Source: Candidatus Thiodiazotropha sp. 'RUGA' (lineage in GTDB: Bacteria; Pseudomonadota; Gammaproteobacteria; Chromatiales; Chromatiaceae). From it: DNA of 35,897 nt. Under the pieces are notes generated by a model. That model ran no database searches and had not been told where the DNA came from. It worked only from the letters and a program-made list of their open reading frames with translations. Positions 2,273-8,753 of this stretch are shown here, one piece after another (the first letter of the stretch is position 1; each line of letters begins with the position of its first letter). Position numbers and translations under genes: made by a program. The stretch covers positions 1 to 35,897 of the forward strand of contig JAEPDS010000035.1 of the NCBI GenBank assembly GCA_016842065.1, read 5' to 3'.

Positions 2273-3295
2273 ATGACAGGAGTAAATGCAACAAACCAGT
2301 GTGGATGTCCAAATCCAATGGATGACACATCGGTAACCAGGGGCTGTGGAAAAACAGTTCTTGATGCAGGAAATGGTAATGACAACATTAACGTTCATAC
2401 CAACTTCGATGGATCGGTTGATGTATGTGTTAATGGCAAAACCTACAGTTTCAGTGCACAAGAGGCACAAAATCTCGAAATCCGTGGTGGCAATGGTAAT
2501 GACAACATCACCATGAGCGGCCAGCAGCTCTGCGGTCCTAAAAACAATATTACCCTGAACGGCGGTAATGGCAACGATACGTTACGCGGTGGGTCGGGTA
2601 ACGACACACTGATCGGTGGTAATGGTAATGATCGCATAAGCGGCGGCAGCGGCGATGACACGATCATTGGTGGTCCCGGTGATGATTGCATTCGTGCAGG
2701 GAGTGGTAATGACTCCATCTGGGGTGGTGGTGGCAATGACCGTATCAGTGGCGGCAGCGGCAATGACATCCTGGTAGGTGGTAGCGGTGATGACTGCATA
2801 CGTGGTGGTAGTGGTAATGACTCCATCTGGGGTGGTGCCGGCAACGACCGTATCAGCGGAGGCAGTGGCAACGATCGACTGATTGGCGGTAGCGGCGATG
2901 ATTGTATTCGTGGTGGTCGGGGTGATGACTCCATCTGGGGTGGCTCCGGTAACGATCGTATCCATGGTGGTCGTGGCGATGACATGATCTCCGGCGGTTG
3001 TGGCAATGACAATATTCGCGGTGGTCGTGGCGACGACAGGATCTGGGGTGGTCATGGCAATGACATCATCCGAGGTGGTCGTGGCAACGATACCATCCGT
3101 GGTGGTTGCGGAGATGACTACATCAACGGAGGAAGAGGTTGCGACGATATCTCTGGCGGCCCTGGAAATGACAAGATCCGTGGTGGCTTCGATCTGTTCA
3201 ATCCTCTGTCACACCTTTCCTGCCTGCTGGGCGGCGGTGGTGGAAATCTGTTGGGCGGTGGAGGGTTTCCGCTGAACCTGATCTCTCCCAGATAA
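2273..3295 (+). CDS. RTX (hemolysin-type calcium-binding) repeat protein, Cys-rich
   Basis: This 340-residue protein is almost entirely calcium-binding nonapeptides of the GGxGxDxIx type. I count 23 contiguous copies from residue 97 to 303, with isolated copies near 32 and 72. Such repeats fold into a parallel beta-roll when secreted into calcium-rich surroundings. There is no catalytic domain and no N-terminal signal peptide, so export would need a type I or other signal-independent system. None is encoded here. It is unusually rich in Cys for the family (residues 10, 12, 25, 52, 87, 139, 175, 211, 243, 279, 290 and 317). Cys and Trp recur every 36 residues. The C-terminal 37 residues are Gly-rich and hydrophobic and do not resemble a textbook type I signal. 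GGAG lies 8 bases before the ATG. Whether SctU next door is related to its export is unknown. Confidence 0.85.
   Translation: MTGVNATNQCGCPNPMDDTSVTRGCGKTVLDAGNGNDNINVHTNFDGSVDVCVNGKTYSFSAQEAQNLEIRGGNGNDNITMSGQQLCGPKNNITLNGGNGNDTLRGGSGNDTLIGGNGNDRISGGSGDDTIIGGPGDDCIRAGSGNDSIWGGGGNDRISGGSGNDILVGGSGDDCIRGGSGNDSIWGGAGNDRISGGSGNDRLIGGSGDDCIRGGRGDDSIWGGSGNDRIHGGRGDDMISGGCGNDNIRGGRGDDRIWGGHGNDIIRGGRGNDTIRGGCGDDYINGGRGCDDISGGPGNDKIRGGFDLFNPLSHLSCLLGGGGGNLLGGGGFPLNLISPR
2669..2992 (+). repeat. three tandem 108-bp units inside the RTX gene
   Basis: Residues 133-168, 169-204 and 205-240 form three successive 36-residue units, each made of four nonapeptides. The first nonapeptide ends DDCIR and the second ends in SIW. 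The third has an NDRI core. At DNA level this is a 108-bp period, which suggests growth of the gene by duplication of four-repeat blocks. Confidence 0.75.
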
Positions 3296-3372: not shown

Positions 3373-3972
3373 TTAGTAATATCTAATTAAGCCTATTAAG
3401 ATACCCTGGATCTGGATTTGATCAGGTTTGTAGATCATCGGGCTCATGGTTGCATTGGCTGGGTGAAGAATGATTTTACCGGGTTGTTGTTCAAGACGTT
3501 TCAAGGTTGTCTCCTGCTGATCAATCAATGCAACCACGATGTCTCCGTTATCTGCTGCTGCAGACTGTTCAATGACGACATAATCACCATCAAAGATTCC
3601 CTCATCGATCATCGAATCACCCGATACCTGGAGGGCATAGCGGGGTTTACTGCCAGCCATAGCGTCTGGCACTGAGATATTTTCCGTTTGCTCAACCGCC
3701 TCGATGGGATGTCCAGCAGCGATCCGTCCCAACATAGGTATCCCCTGCTCTTGCTGTGCGGCTGATACCAGTCGAATGCCGCGCTGTTTTCCCTCCATTG
3801 GTTCGACCAGGCCAGCCATTACCAGGGCCTGGATATGTTTGTGCAGGGATCCCCGCGAACGCAATCCAAGCCGTTGACAGAGTTCATCGTAGGTTGGTGG
3901 TCGTTGCATGATATCCGCATCACTTCGCAGAATATCGTAGATCTCCTGCTGTCTTCTGGTTAATCGCATCAT
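3373..3972 (-). CDS. lexA: LexA repressor (SOS regulator)
   Basis: LexA represses DNA-damage genes and cuts itself when stimulated by RecA-ssDNA. The 199-residue protein has an N-terminal winged helix (about 1-70) and a C-terminal S24-type protease domain. The cleavage bond is Ala86-Gly87, Ser120 lies in SGDSM, and Lys158 lies in TLKRL. The recognition-helix region (RSRGSLHKHI, about 38-47) differs from the E. coli form and is closer to the alphaproteobacterial type. This fits the GTTC-type half-sites found in its own promoter. It is divergent from the mrfAB-like operon with 63 bases between start codons, so LexA probably controls both directions. The ribosome site is weak. The family call is very secure, and the operator specificity is inferred. 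Confidence 0.95.
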   Translation of the reverse strand: MMRLTRRQQEIYDILRSDADIMQRPPTYDELCQRLGLRSRGSLHKHIQALVMAGLVEPMEGKQRGIRLVSAAQQEQGIPMLGRIAAGHPIEAVEQTENISVPDAMAGSKPRYALQVSGDSMIDEGIFDGDYVVIEQSAAADNGDIVVALIDQQETTLKRLEQQPGKIILHPANATMSPMIYKPDQIQIQGILIGLIRYY

Positions 3973-3982
3973 AGGGCTTGTT

Positions 3983-4030
3983 TGTTCTCCTGTTGTTCTC
4001 TATTCTAGACTAGAGAACGGATAGAGAACA
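3983..4030. promoter_or_regulatory. candidate double LexA operator between lexA and mrfA
   Basis: Four half-sites are present: GTTC at 3984-3987 and 3995-3998, and its complement GAAC at 4015-4018 and 4026-4029. Each pair has exactly 7 bases between members (GTTC-N7-GTTC, the published alphaproteobacterial LexA box). The whole block is mirror-symmetric about 4006/4007, with TGTTCTC outer arms. It covers most of the space between two divergent start codons, so binding would block both promoters. Identification as LexA sites is inference. Confidence 0.65.
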
Positions 4031-4035
4031 GACTG

Positions 4036-6447
4036 ATGAGCAGACCTGCAGAATCGATTCACTCAGATACCGGCATCCCGCTTTGCCATTCTCCCGATCA
4101 ATTTGCTGATCAACTGCGACAACGCAATGCGGAACGAATTACCGGTGAGCTGACCATACCGGCCCGTAGAGGCAAATTTGCTCCATTTCCTGATGATCTT
4201 GACCCTCGCCTGACTCGTGCCTTGATCAGCAGAGGGATTAAACAGCTCTACTCTCATCAGGCTGCTGCCTGGAGCGCCATTCAGTCGTTGCAACATACCG
4301 TGGTTGTCACGCCAACGGCATCCGGCAAAACGCTCTGTTACAACCTGCCGGTTTTGCAGGCTGCATTGCAAGACCGGAGCAAATCCCTTTATCTGTTTCC
4401 CACTAAAGCACTGGCTCAGGATCAAGTCGCTGAAATCAATGAGATCAATCGCTCGGAATCGCTTGGTATACGGGCTTTCACCTTTGATGGGGATACCCCT
4501 GGTGATGCACGAAAAGCTGTCCGGACCAGAGGGGATATCGTGGTCTCAAATCCGGATATGCTGCATCAGGGCATTCTGCCCCACCACACAAAGTGGGCGC
4601 AGTTTTTTGAAAATCTTCGCTATGTGGTGATCGATGAGATGCACACCTATCGAGGTGTCTTCGGGTCCCATGTGGCGAATGTTATCCGGCGTTTGCAGAG
4701 AGTCGGTAAATTCTATGGATCCGAACCGCTGTTTATTCTCTGTTCAGCCACCATCGCCAATCCCGCCGAGTTGGCCAGGCAGCTGATCCATGCCGACGTA
4801 TCAGCGATTACCGAAAGTGGAGCGCCGCAAGGAGCCAGGCATCTGCTGCTATGGAATCCTCCGGTTGTGAACCATGACCTGGGTATACGAGCATCAGCCC
4901 GCTCCCAGAGTACACGGATTGCCAAGAGTGCCGTAAAACATGGCCTACAGAGTATCGTGTTTGCTCAGTCCCGACTGATGGTCGAGGTCCTGACCAAATA
5001 CCTGAAAGACAATTTCGACCACGATCCCCGCTATCCATCACGGATTGCAGCCTATCGGGGAGGCTATTTGCCTACCGAACGCCGTTCGCTGGAGAAGCGA
5101 CTGCGTCAAGGAGAGATCGATTGTGTGGTTTCGACCTCTGCGCTTGAACTGGGGGTGGATATTGGTTCACTGGATCTCGCAATTCTCAACGGGTATCCGG
5201 GCACCGTCGCTGCAACCTGGCAGAGATTGGGACGTGCGGGTCGACGTCAGCGTTCAGCGATCGGGGTTCTGGTTGCCAGCAGCCTGCCACTGGATCAATA
5301 CATCATTCGCAATCCGGAGTTTTTCCTGGGCGCCGCACCGGAACAGGCTCGAATCGATCCGGATCAATTACTGATTCTATTGGATCACATCCGATGTGCT
5401 GCCTTTGAGCTGCCGTTCAAAGAGGGTGACTCTTTTGGCAAACAGAATTTGTCGGAGATGCTGAGCTATTTGGAGGAACATGGCATTTTACACCGGGAGG
5501 CTAAGCAGTGGCATTGGATGGCGGACAGCTATCCGGCCAACAGCGTCAGTCTTCGTTCTGTTGCAGAGGGTAATTTCGTGGTCATCGATACCACAGATGG
5601 AGATAAGCGAATCATTGCTGAAGTCGATTACAGTTCTGCCCCGATGACCCTTTATGAGGGTGCCATCTATATGATTCAGTCGATGCCCTATCAGGTTGAA
5701 AGACTCGATTGGGAGGGACGAAAGGCTTTTGTAACCCAGACAAAAGCCGACTACTACACCGATGCCATTGACTATACCCGACTTAAGATTCTGCAAAACT
5801 TCGAGTCACAAGAGCGTTTCCGCTACCAGGTATCCCAGGGGGAAGTTCACCTGGTTACCCGGGTTGCCGGTTACAAGAAGATCCGCTACTACACCCATGA
5901 AAACGTAGGATATGGCAAGATCGACCTGCCTGATCAGGAGATGCACACCACCGCGGTCTGGTGGCAAGTCAATCCCATTGCACTGGATCAAGCTTTTACC
6001 TCAAGACAAGCGTCACTGGACGGATTTCTCGGTGCCGGTTATGCCATGCATGTTATCGCGACCATGCGCATGCTCTCAGAATCACGTGACATCGGTCGCG
6101 CCATTGGAGATGGTCAGGACCGCTGGTATGCGAGCCTGGAGAATAGTGGCCGTGGCACGCTGAGTGACCGTAGCGGGCAAAATATCGATCCAGACAGTCT
6201 GGATCAATTCACCCCAACACTGTTTCTCTACGACAACTATCCAGGTGGAATCGGCATAACAAATCCCCTTTTCGACATTCGCTCCAGGATCGTTGCTGAT
6301 GCACGAAGTCTGGTTGAGTCTTGTGACTGCACGTGTGGTTGTCCTGGATGTATCGGCCCGATACTGGCTGGCGACGAACAGGGTGGGAATTCAGCCAAAC
6401 ACTCTGCCTTGACCGTCCTGTCCCTGCTCTCGAACGATGAACCTTAA
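4036..6447 (+). CDS. MrfA-like SF2 helicase with C-terminal DUF1998 Zn domain
   Basis: This 803-residue DEAD/DEAH-type ATPase resembles Bacillus subtilis MrfA (YprA), a 3'-5' helicase that acts with an exonuclease in repair of mitomycin-type DNA damage. Visible motifs are Walker A PTASGKT (93-99), the DEMH box (200-203), SAT (about 237-239) and a helicase C domain ending in a QRLGRAGRR arginine-finger motif. The C-terminal DUF1998 region has a Cys cluster at residues 763, 765, 767, 769 and 772 that should bind zinc. The length is somewhat greater than the Bacillus protein. It overlaps the start of the exonuclease gene by 11 bases, so the pair is translationally coupled. Divergence from lexA through a shared candidate operator suggests SOS control. 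The partner gene and motif set support MrfA over other DUF1998 helicases. Confidence 0.88.
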   Translation: MSRPAESIHSDTGIPLCHSPDQFADQLRQRNAERITGELTIPARRGKFAPFPDDLDPRLTRALISRGIKQLYSHQAAAWSAIQSLQHTVVVTPTASGKTLCYNLPVLQAALQDRSKSLYLFPTKALAQDQVAEINEINRSESLGIRAFTFDGDTPGDARKAVRTRGDIVVSNPDMLHQGILPHHTKWAQFFENLRYVVIDEMHTYRGVFGSHVANVIRRLQRVGKFYGSEPLFILCSATIANPAELARQLIHADVSAITESGAPQGARHLLLWNPPVVNHDLGIRASARSQSTRIAKSAVKHGLQSIVFAQSRLMVEVLTKYLKDNFDHDPRYPSRIAAYRGGYLPTERRSLEKRLRQGEIDCVVSTSALELGVDIGSLDLAILNGYPGTVAATWQRLGRAGRRQRSAIGVLVASSLPLDQYIIRNPEFFLGAAPEQARIDPDQLLILLDHIRCAAFELPFKEGDSFGKQNLSEMLSYLEEHGILHREAKQWHWMADSYPANSVSLRSVAEGNFVVIDTTDGDKRIIAEVDYSSAPMTLYEGAIYMIQSMPYQVERLDWEGRKAFVTQTKADYYTDAIDYTRLKILQNFESQERFRYQVSQGEVHLVTRVAGYKKIRYYTHENVGYGKIDLPDQEMHTTAVWWQVNPIALDQAFTSRQASLDGFLGAGYAMHVIATMRMLSESRDIGRAIGDGQDRWYASLENSGRGTLSDRSGQNIDPDSLDQFTPTLFLYDNYPGGIGITNPLFDIRSRIVADARSLVESCDCTCGCPGCIGPILAGDEQGGNSAKHSALTVLSLLSNDEP

Positions 6448-7651
6448 AACCAGGCTCAGTCAGCTTCAGAATCAGGCTGGTGGTCGACAAGACTCCCCTG
6501 CCCTCTCTTGTCAACCGAAGGATTTGAAGATTCCGCATCGTGTCGGCCAACCGAGCAGGGATAACAATCACAGGCGCCACTCAGACAGCAGGCTAGCCGA
6601 ACAGCTTCGAGGCAAACTGATTGATGAGGGTGTGATCCAGATCGAAAAGCAGATTCCACTGAACTCAAAGCATGGCACCATGCAATTAAGTGAATTGCAA
6701 TATGCGCCGCAATTGCCCGGCGATGCTTGTCTGAAACTGAAGAACTTCTACCTGGATACTGAAACTACCGGGCTGTCGGGGGGAAGTGGCACCCTTGCAT
6801 TCCTGATTGGCTATGCCTGGCTGGAGCGATCAGCAATCTGCCTGCGTCAATTCTTGATCACCCGTTTCTCAGCGGAAGCTAAAATGCTGGAACAGACTGC
6901 ATCGGGGCTCGAGGCAGCAGAACGTCTGGTCAGTTACAACGGTAAAAGCTACGACCTGCCCCTGTTGATCAGCCGCTTTCGCATCAATGCCCGTAAGCAA
7001 AAGTTTGATCACCTGCCCCATCTCGATCTGCTGCATGCCACCCGGCGGCTGTTTCGTCACCATTGGCCGAATTGTCGTCTCACTACTCTGGAGCAACGCC
7101 TACTCGGATATTACCGGGTTGACGACCTACCCGGCTCAGAAGCACCTGCCGCCTGGTTTGACTACCTACAGCGTGGCGCTGAGCAAAAACTGATTAAGGT
7201 CGTCGAGCACAATCAAAGTGATATTATTTCATTGCTTGTGGCTCATACGGAACTTGCAAGGGTAGCCCGGAACCCGGATCACTCTGACCTGGATCTCTAC
7301 AGTCTGGCTCGTTGGGTTGGGGAATTCGATAGAGAGCAGGCTTACGATCTGCTGAGGAATCGGATCGATCAGGCCGATGAGAAGAGCAAAGGGTATCTGG
7401 CTCAGCTCTTGCAGAAATCGGGGGACTGGCAGGGTGCCACCCGGCTATGGCAACAACTTGCTCAAAATCGCTGCCCGGAAGCGCTTGAAAAACTGGCAAA
7501 ATATCACGAACACGTAAGCAAGGATCTGGATGCGGCGCGTTACTATTGCCGGCAGCTTCCAGATTGCCAGGCACGGACTCATCGCTTGAGACGGCTGCAG
7601 CGCAAGTCAGGATATCAGCTGAGTCCAGAGCACCCATCGACTATTCTATAA
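6437..7651 (+). CDS. MrfB-like RNase H-fold 3'-5' exonuclease (YprB family)
   Basis: This 404-residue protein has the DEDD-type nuclease domain of the YprB/MrfB family. Asp107 and Glu109 sit in YLDTETTGLSGGSG, Asp173 in SYDLPLL and Asp262 in HNQSDII, matching the four metal-binding acids expected. The first 100 residues are basic and probably unstructured. The C-terminal 120 residues look like helical TPR-type repeats (LARWVGEFDREQAYDLL and on). In Bacillus the helicase MrfA and exonuclease MrfB work together on mitomycin C damage. Here the genes overlap by 11 bases in the same order. No terminator was recognised after the stop codon, although weak inverted CCTTAA/TTAAGG arms lie near 7708 and 7731. 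Confidence 0.87.
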   Translation: MNLKTRLSQLQNQAGGRQDSPALSCQPKDLKIPHRVGQPSRDNNHRRHSDSRLAEQLRGKLIDEGVIQIEKQIPLNSKHGTMQLSELQYAPQLPGDACLKLKNFYLDTETTGLSGGSGTLAFLIGYAWLERSAICLRQFLITRFSAEAKMLEQTASGLEAAERLVSYNGKSYDLPLLISRFRINARKQKFDHLPHLDLLHATRRLFRHHWPNCRLTTLEQRLLGYYRVDDLPGSEAPAAWFDYLQRGAEQKLIKVVEHNQSDIISLLVAHTELARVARNPDHSDLDLYSLARWVGEFDREQAYDLLRNRIDQADEKSKGYLAQLLQKSGDWQGATRLWQQLAQNRCPEALEKLAKYHEHVSKDLDAARYYCRQLPDCQARTHRLRRLQRKSGYQLSPEHPSTIL

Positions 7652-7808
7652 AGCGATCAATTTATACGCCCCCAAACCAGCGGGCATTGCAGATTGAATC
7701 CAACCTTAACCCTACCGCGTACAGCTATTAAGGTGTCGACTTTATAGTGACAAGCCTGCCTGCGTAGTCGAATTATCATTAATACATAACAAAGCGTGAG
7801 GTACTACA

Positions 7809-8753
7809 GTGAACTTTCGGATTGTGTGGATTGGTTTCTGTTTGCTGTTCACTTCTGTGCAGAGCAGCGCAGGGTCAATCTATAAGAATGGCTTTGATAT
7901 TACAGATGCGACGATCGAGATTTCAGAAATTCTACCTGGCGGACCGCCTCGTGATGGGATACCGTCGATTGATGAACCCCAATTCGTGCCTGCCAAACAG
8001 GCAGACTTTTTAAAACCACAGGACCGAATACTGGGGGTTGTAAGGAATGGTGTTGTAAAGGCCTATCCAATCAATATTTTAAACTGGCATGAAATTGTCA
8101 ATGACCGTTTCAGGCAGGAACCGATCGTCATCACTTTCTGCCCGCTCTGTGGTACGGGTATGGCATTCGAAGCAACGGTCAGAGGTGAACCCCTTAAGTT
8201 TGGCGTGTCCGGCTTGCTCTACAACAGCGATGTACTGCTGTATGACCGTGCCAGTGAGTCTTTGTGGTCACAAATCATGAAGCAGAGTATCAGCGGAAAG
8301 TATCAGGGGAATCGTTTACGCCATGTTCCCTTACAACACACCAATTGGGGCGACTGGTCTGATCGATATCCTGATACATTGGTACTGTCTGATGAGACAG
8401 GCTTTTCAAGAGACTACACGCGTTCACCCTATCGGGGCTACGACAAGAGCCGGGATCTCTATTTTCCGGTAGAGTTTCGGGCCAAGGGATACCATCCGAA
8501 AGAACGGGTGCTCGGATTGGAAGTGAATGGCGCCTACAAGGCCTACCCTTTCATAGAGTTGTCTAAAACAGATGGATCGATCGAAGAGAGTCTGGCTGGC
8601 CAACAGTTGACAGTTAAGTATGATATGCAAAACCAGACGGCCAATGCCTATGATCTGTCGGGTGATCTACTGCCAAGCACTACCGCTTTCTGGTTTGCCT
8701 GGTATGCGTTTCATCCTCAAACAGAGATTTATAGAGCGACTGATCTGGAATGA
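7809..8753 (+). CDS. DUF3179 domain-containing secreted protein
   Basis: This 314-residue protein starts with GTG, preceded by GAGG at about 7798-7801. It has a signal peptide of about 22 residues (cut near SAG-S). The rest matches the DUF3179 family. A CPLCGTG motif (Cys111 and Cys114) follows a hydrophobic strand, and later come conserved SLWSQ, W and SRDYTRSPY segments. The function of the family is unknown. The CxxC pair suggests metal or heme binding or redox activity in the periplasm. The gene stands alone, with about 157 bases to mrfB and a convergent neighbour downstream. Confidence 0.85.
   Translation: MNFRIVWIGFCLLFTSVQSSAGSIYKNGFDITDATIEISEILPGGPPRDGIPSIDEPQFVPAKQADFLKPQDRILGVVRNGVVKAYPINILNWHEIVNDRFRQEPIVITFCPLCGTGMAFEATVRGEPLKFGVSGLLYNSDVLLYDRASESLWSQIMKQSISGKYQGNRLRHVPLQHTNWGDWSDRYPDTLVLSDETGFSRDYTRSPYRGYDKSRDLYFPVEFRAKGYHPKERVLGLEVNGAYKAYPFIELSKTDGSIEESLAGQQLTVKYDMQNQTANAYDLSGDLLPSTTAFWFAWYAFHPQTEIYRATDLE

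Follow-up and report, generated by a model that had tools for sequence, protein, structure and literature searches.

What is a mirrored pair of alphaproteobacterial LexA boxes doing beside a gammaproteobacterial lexA gene, and which regulator does it serve? The question is raised by the window analyzed here, a stretch of 35,897 nucleotides (positions 1 to 35,897 of contig JAEPDS010000035.1, assembly GCA_016842065.1) from Candidatus Thiodiazotropha sp. 'RUGA', in which lexA and the mrfAB genes diverge from a short gap that contains the array. Our comparisons indicate that the array is very probably the switch of a second LexA family in the gammaproteobacteria, one that uses the alphaproteobacterial DNA word, and that it probably comprises two alpha-type units, one per promoter. 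Put in terms of this locus, we consider it highly likely, from the sequence comparisons set out below, that the array is the LexA operator of the divergent lexA/mrfAB promoter pair and that the LexA concerned belongs to a group separate from the canonical gammaproteobacterial one.

The identity of the flanking genes is as the earlier, sequence-only reading had it. The lexA gene (3373 to 3972, reverse strand; here lexA-A) encodes a 199-residue LexA repressor with an N-terminal LexA winged helix and a C-terminal S24 peptidase; it scores 191.9 bits against TIGR00498 (cut-off, 110.95) and 49.1 and 105 bits against PF01726 and PF00717, respectively, both over cut-off. Its architecture is that of canonical gammaproteobacterial LexA, and it aligns to E. 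coli LexA over residues 2 to 197. Ala86-Gly87, Ser120, and Lys158 match E. coli LexA in this alignment and are invariant in the window protein and seven relatives, and we take the first to be the cleavage site and the latter two to be the dyad, with roles as in E. coli LexA. Named relatives at 89 to 95% LexA identity occur in Candidatus Thiodiazotropha taylori and endoloripes and in a symbiont of the clam Stewartia floridana, which places the window genome in or close to that genus (Chromatiales, Sedimenticolaceae). On the other side of the gap, on the forward strand, mrfA (4036 to 6447) encodes a DEAD/DEAH helicase with the MrfA zinc-binding domain (PF00270, PF00271, PF09369, and PF22982), and mrfB (6437 to 7651) encodes an RNase H-like exonuclease (PF13482). 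An MZB-domain helicase thus adjoins an RNase H-like exonuclease, the arrangement that defines MrfAB, with PF09369 and PF13482 over cut-off (MZB in MrfA and RNase_H_2 in MrfB). The same helicase-exonuclease gene pair functions in mitomycin repair in Bacillus subtilis, according to the portions of PMC12458937 available to us; unlike the B. subtilis pair, the window mrfAB is divergent to lexA and is preceded by LexA-type boxes. No title or abstract opening in the literature searched reports LexA control of mrfA. Elsewhere in the window, an RTX protein with calcium-binding nonapeptide repeats (PF00353, 8 stretches) adjoins lexA at 2273 to 3295, and a nitrogen-fixation-like cluster (nifH, nifD, nifK, nifE, nifN, and others, recognized by eye from the frame list) spans 13087 to 34245.

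The gap itself runs from 3973 to 4035, the 63 bases claimed earlier, and both of the exact, facing GTTC-N7-GTTC boxes reported there are present, at 3984 to 3998 (+) and 4015 to 4029 (-). The full boxes are six bases long (GTTCTC at 3984 to 3989 and 3995 to 4000; GAGAAC at 4013 to 4018 and 4024 to 4029) and make up two putative operator units of the form GTTCTC-N5-GTTCTC, unit 1 at 3984 to 4000 on the forward strand and unit 2 at 4013 to 4029 on the reverse strand, i.e., in the lexA direction. The facing pairs are separated by TATTCTAGACTA. Since the half-site centers are 11, 20, and 11 bases apart, the proposed 11-base period holds inside each pair but not between the pairs, whose inner half-site centers are 20 apart. 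CTGT-N8-ACAG is absent from 3973 to 4035, even with one mismatch allowed, and the Gram-positive LexA box, GAAC-N4-GTTC, is not visible there either; the assignment of the boxes to the alphaproteobacterial rather than the CTGT-N8-ACAG type was correct.

How surprising is such an array? A single GTTC-N7-GTTC match in the window is weak, because the three exact matches found (1.09 expected) were reached in 5 of 100 shuffles, and the motif is not specific by itself, since its reversed form, used as a control, has 83 matches genome-wide and the motif 119. Two sites that face each other, forward then reverse, no more than 30 bases apart, are by contrast expected 0.02 times per genome; among 100 listed of the 119 matches there were two, namely, the window array and one before another lexA. 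GTTC-N7-GTTC was also considered as a genome-wide marker of the regulon and was rejected on the basis of the control just given, and longer forms were not clearly above their controls in the same genome: 18 versus 25 for GTTCTCN5GTTCTA with one mismatch, 5 versus 4 for GTTCTN6GTTCT, and 12 versus 17 for KTTCTCN5KTTCT. These counts give no sign of a wide regulon in the window genome. The 12 matches to KTTCTCN5KTTCT comprise five in lexA promoters, six inside longer open frames, and one (L218) that is neither clearly.

Conservation, the stronger test, was assessed at the lexA genes of relatives, which were found by protein search and so were not selected for the motif. Of 158 confirmed relatives, 80 were kept, and 160 bases upstream of each were inspected, with one mismatch allowed; start codons are possibly misplaced in two (L125 and L187). 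Facing pairs were present in 62, a forward pair only in 11, a reverse pair only in 4, and neither in 3. The relatives include Sedimenticola, Thiogranum, Solemya symbionts, Methylobacter, and Methylomonas, and 24 of these 80 genes have mrfA diverging from them; a plasmid search yielded mostly UmuD/MucA, plus one Methylobacter lexA. After removal of near-copies, 70 promoters were left for counting spacers from 0 to 30. An exact forward pair with spacer 7 was found in 49 of them (one at most at any other spacer) and an exact reverse pair with spacer 7 in 43 (five at most at others), while shuffled promoters gave 0.1 to 0.2 pairs per spacer; the Gram-positive form, GAAC-N4-GTTC, occurred in none of the 70. 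The distance between the two pairs, by comparison, ranged from 9 to 28 over 43 promoters, with 16 to 18 the commonest. A nearly constant spacer within pairs and a variable distance between them argue that the direct repeat is a rigid unit and that the mirror arrangement consists of two facing units. Comparison thus establishes the repeats, their spacing, and their conservation, as it does their place before DNA-damage genes (see below). The further suggestion was that four half-sites lie on one face of the helix and might let two dimers bind cooperatively. The first part is roughly true of the window (11, 20, 11), but helical phasing of all four boxes did not emerge as a conserved rule: 24 of the 43 promoters come within 0.2 turn of a whole number, a weak excess over the 40% expected by chance (P = 0.04).

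In several promoter sets, the units also bear a regular relation to promoter-like hexamers. A consensus scan of 3850 to 4150 returned no standard sigma-70-like promoter. Proposed elements for mrfA are a weak -35 at 3978 to 3983 (+; TTGTTT, 3 of 6) and a -10 at 4001 to 4006 (+; TATTCT), two bases past the second GTTC, and for lexA, from sequence comparison by eye, a probable -10 at 4002 to 4007 (-; TAGAAT, with TATAAT in several relatives). In lexA-C-like promoters (the lexA-C gene is described below), CTTGAAA directly precedes the unit when promoters are aligned on it, and a -10-like hexamer lies two bases past the second GTTC in 16 of 18 forward units, so that the 17 bases separating -35 from -10 are taken up by the unit. 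The corresponding hexamer lies two bases past GTTC in 9 of 12 mrfA-linked reverse units and directly after it in the other 3, and directly after GTTC in all nine lexA-B forward units. Its placement is less regular in lexA-A forward units, where 0, 6, 8, and 9 are each frequent offsets. For lexA-B and the lexA-C-like set, the reverse units lay beyond the frame used to relate unit to hexamer.

By analogy with the LexA family, this layout suggests how the switch might work. Each 17-base direct repeat, GTTCTC-N5-GTTCTC, would be one LexA binding unit. The mrfA promoter of the window would consist of TTGTTT, unit 1, and TATTCT, with the unit filling its 17-base spacer; the same unit would also lie over the lexA start region, and unit 2, which is kept upstream of the lexA relatives, would cover the -35/spacer region on the lexA side and, on the mrfA side, the start region. 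With LexA bound, RNA polymerase presumably would be kept off both promoters. Upon DNA damage, RecA-stimulated self-cleavage of LexA would release the two together, such that new repressor would be produced at the same time as MrfAB, the repair helicase-nuclease.

If the boxes are LexA operators, they might be expected before other SOS genes, as the sequence-only reading had proposed, and it is in sister genera that this is seen most clearly (at recA, lexA, dinB-like genes, and imuA). In four sister genomes (G024, G027, G030, and G022), LexA-A-like genes were all that the LexA search found, apart from one additional weak S24-like match in G030. In these genomes, AGAAC-N6-AGAAC occurs at 26 sites, versus 11 in the control. 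Every one of the four has it before recA, and three have it before lexA; it also lies before DinB-like genes in two genomes (recognized by eye rather than by family scan) and, in a single genome each, before mrfA, imuA, and an integron integrase; among the 26 sites, five (L286, L291, L299, L289, and L300) look like chance, and three (L294, L304, and L310) are unassigned. The mrfA gene of G030 lies on a different contig from lexA and has a facing array of its own (GTTCTCCATAGATTCTC, TATCCT, GAAC-N7-GAAC, with one mismatch in one pair), so that the box goes with mrfA as such and is more than a feature of a neighboring lexA. No box was found at mrfA in G023, which has LexA-A, or in G029, which has canonical LexA only. 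The comparison as a whole marks out the mitomycin repair genes mrfAB as a candidate SOS pair.

The picture at recA differs between the sister genera and the genus of the window. Among sister genera with LexA-A, an exact recA box was present in five of six scanned, G028 having one mismatch (the recA of G031 was cut off). In the window genome, recA is preceded at about 212 bases by GTACTC-N5-GTTCTA, with one mismatch, and no CTGT-N8-ACAG was found there within one mismatch; the different LexA motif at recA that the earlier reading had named as evidence against itself was thus not what we found. The one-mismatch box about 212 bases upstream recurs in 6 of 22 genus members and is absent in 16, of which 13 have no match and three (G007, G011, and G017) have other one-mismatch matches, those of G011 and G017 lying inside recA (the stretches scanned at recA in G011, G017, and G022 contain some coding sequence). 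Given this absence, LexA-A may act locally as a repressor in the window's genus and not govern the SOS response as a whole. Within the genus (n = 22), lexA-A and mrfA are both present in 14 members and both absent in 8, a pattern for which joint gain or loss as neighbors may suffice; two members, G014 and G017, have no LexA relative at an E value of 0.001 and no close mrfA either. Upstream of recA in G007 (L106), there is a long inverted repeat, such as the insertion of a small element might have left.

The genome in fact holds three LexA genes over the Pfam cut-off. lexA-B (C21; L017, 6742 to 7400) has a mirrored array of boxes, GTTCTC-N5-GTTCTA, that are nearly the same as those of lexA-A, and a Y-family DNA polymerase gene lies behind it (7438 to 8706). 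lexA-C (C29) shows the same mirrored layout with TTTC/GAAA replacing GTTC/GAAC; it diverges from imuA (NF033429, over cut-off) and from a gene of the Y family that we read as imuB, the locus as a whole being L018, 3655 to 6452. A search for LexA-C in 369 genomes of the class yielded 30 loci, 29 of them new, and a DinB-like frame (by eye) lies directly behind 9 of the 22 lexA-C-like genes for which neighbors were listed. In a set of 29 loci examined for arrays, the LexA frame was readable in 27; no exact 11-base repeat of at least 5 bases was found in L267, L268, L269, L282, and L284 (the starts of L269 and L282 being misplaced), and L265 and L271 hold only an unrelated 11-base repeat.

The TTTC boxes of lexA-C bring into view a possible link between the protein and its site. 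In 107 dereplicated cases (of 161; two lacked a readable helix), residue 40, the position after the recognition-helix Ser, is Arg or Lys in 99 (LexA-A has Arg here and LexA-C has Val). Of 268 half-sites that go with Arg or Lys, 243 have G as the first base of NTTC, compared with 3 of 26 for the six proteins that have Val or Gln (Fisher P = 6e-18, with kinship ignored). When 47 rows are placed on a tree, the best one requires four changes and the supported branches contain one independent pair, too few for significance, and in six Arg/Lys rows (L159, L261, L265, L270, L277, and L280) no more than half of the half-sites begin with G. We regard this covariation as a lead, not proof, that ties LexA itself to the boxes; it has the merit of making the specificity switch testable with point changes.

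Three other readings of the array have to be weighed against a LexA operator made of two direct-repeat units. Canonical LexA binds palindromes, and the inner boxes of the array are perfect inverted repeats, GTTC-N16-GAAC, so that a single LexA dimer might bind the inner palindrome, with the outer half-sites accessory; that inner distances of 16 to 18 are the commonest also speaks for this. We nevertheless think it improbable, since the inner distance wanders over the range given above while that of the direct repeat is nearly always 7, a single direct repeat is present at recA in five sister genomes, and 15 of 80 lexA relatives have one orientation only. The inverted repeat might instead act in RNA, as a 5' leader hairpin or attenuator, or as a DNA cruciform, as the near-perfect complementarity of the two pairs in some lexA-B promoters might suggest. 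This we regard as extremely improbable: the N5 stretches of the two window pairs are not complementary, no terminator-like site was found at 3850 to 4150, and single units occur.

A rather different possibility is that the array is indeed an operator but that a regulator other than LexA-A binds it, e.g., LexA-B or an unrelated repressor. The boxes of LexA-B hardly differ from those of LexA-A, and cross-binding between the two is compatible with the sequences. Yet the array travels with the lexA genes of three paralogue groups, boxes are present where LexA-A-like proteins were the sole LexA detected in a genome, and helix residue 40 goes together with the box's first base. An exclusive role for another regulator consequently seems very unlikely to us, although additional binding by LexA-B is still compatible with these observations.

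Where, then, does this LexA come from? GTTC-N7-GTTC is known as the alphaproteobacterial LexA motif, as stated in the accessible portions of PMC8565304, PMC3323433, and PMC9578287, and papers that contain this string concern Caulobacter, GcrA/CcrM in alphaproteobacteria, cyanobacteria, Vibrio and multi-chromosome bacteria, and Bacteroidetes, along with a review. No title in the literature searched, which mostly excludes subscription papers, concerned the motif in this lineage. Alphaproteobacterial LexA boxes, such as that of Caulobacter, have the same direct repeat and spacing before lexA as the window, but the proteins differ: the alpha-type helix reads SKSGIHRLI and that of the window LexA (RSRGSLHKHI) reads SRGSLHKHI, and the two fall in separate groups on the tree. 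The arrangement differs too, in that four of five alpha-type lexA promoters (L249, L253, L255, and L256) have GAAC-N7-GAAC first and GTTC-N7-GTTT after, the opposite order. The five alpha rows come from genomes of another class and were labeled alpha by their helix. In a LexA tree without outgroup, the window protein is one of 31 in an A group (99/99), lexA-B and lexA-C have groups of their own, and the five alpha-type rows make up one side of a branch (98/97), with the window LexA outside that clade; the joint branch that bears on the kinship of LexA-A, -B, and -C to alpha LexA has support of 92/77 and is unrooted. Canonical gammaproteobacterial LexA, which recognizes CTGT-N8-ACAG, likewise stands apart on the tree and has another helix, and its box is found before neither lexA-A nor recA of the window genome. 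Among control loci from the phylum (23 readable of 30), CTGT-N8-ACAG with up to one mismatch is present at 13, every one of which comes from the same class; five with an alpha-type helix have exact GAAC-N7-GAAC, and five have neither. The earlier suggestion of a shifted operator in this lineage was right as to the alpha-type box, but what we see is not a shift within one lineage; it is a distinct LexA group, with three LexA genes in a single genome.

That group coexists with canonical LexA in some relatives. G031, for example, has a canonical lexA with CTGTATATAATAACAG plus a lexA-A with GAAC-N7-GAAC; in the same comparison, L068 had no LexA frame. LexA is known to have changed its DNA word in evolution, and the proposed course is that a duplicated copy takes over once the first is lost (as outlined in the available part of PMC8565304), and the presence of both kinds in G031 fits such a model of duplication, divergence, and take-over. 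At the recA of G022 (L204), an exact CTGT-N8-ACAG lies beside an exact GAAC-N7-GAAC, as if recA answers, or once answered, to both kinds of LexA; the recA genes of G024 and G027 have one-mismatch CTGT matches. The Sedimenticolaceae may offer a natural series, from canonical LexA only, through both kinds, to the new kind only and up to three new copies. A second LexA with duties of its own has a precedent in Pseudomonas putida, whose LexA2 recognizes GTAC-N4-GTGC. There, LexA2 governs the error-prone repair operon to which its gene belongs, lexA2-imuA-imuB-dnaE2, according to the available parts of PMC3901139 and PMC5261740. lexA-C likewise adjoins imuA and imuB, a likeness of description and gene order, whereas lexA-A adjoins mrfAB.

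Taken further, these comparisons suggest a widespread second lineage of gammaproteobacterial LexA, in which paralogues with their own mirrored operators guard mrfAB, dinB, or imuAB, the co-change of residue 40 and the first base keeps the circuits separate, and the new LexA took over recA and the SOS genes of the Sedimenticolaceae where the canonical one is gone. Because of the CTGT box at the G022 recA and the single supported pair in the covariation, we hold this broader reading to be evenly balanced.

Two minor observations concern the sister genomes. In G024, an integron integrase gene (L306, G024:C1:2525806; TIGR02249, 453 bits) has GTTCTATATTTGTTCT just upstream, and for this reason integron activity in that genome may be under LexA-A-type control. 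In both G030 (L309/L311) and G024 (L288/L292), a second mirrored array lies approximately 4.5 to 5 kb from lexA, between two small divergent frames that are alike in the two genomes, one of 65 residues and the other of 59 with a hydrophobic C-terminal end. The 59-residue frame has no NCBIfam match; it is possible that it encodes an SOS-induced small membrane protein.
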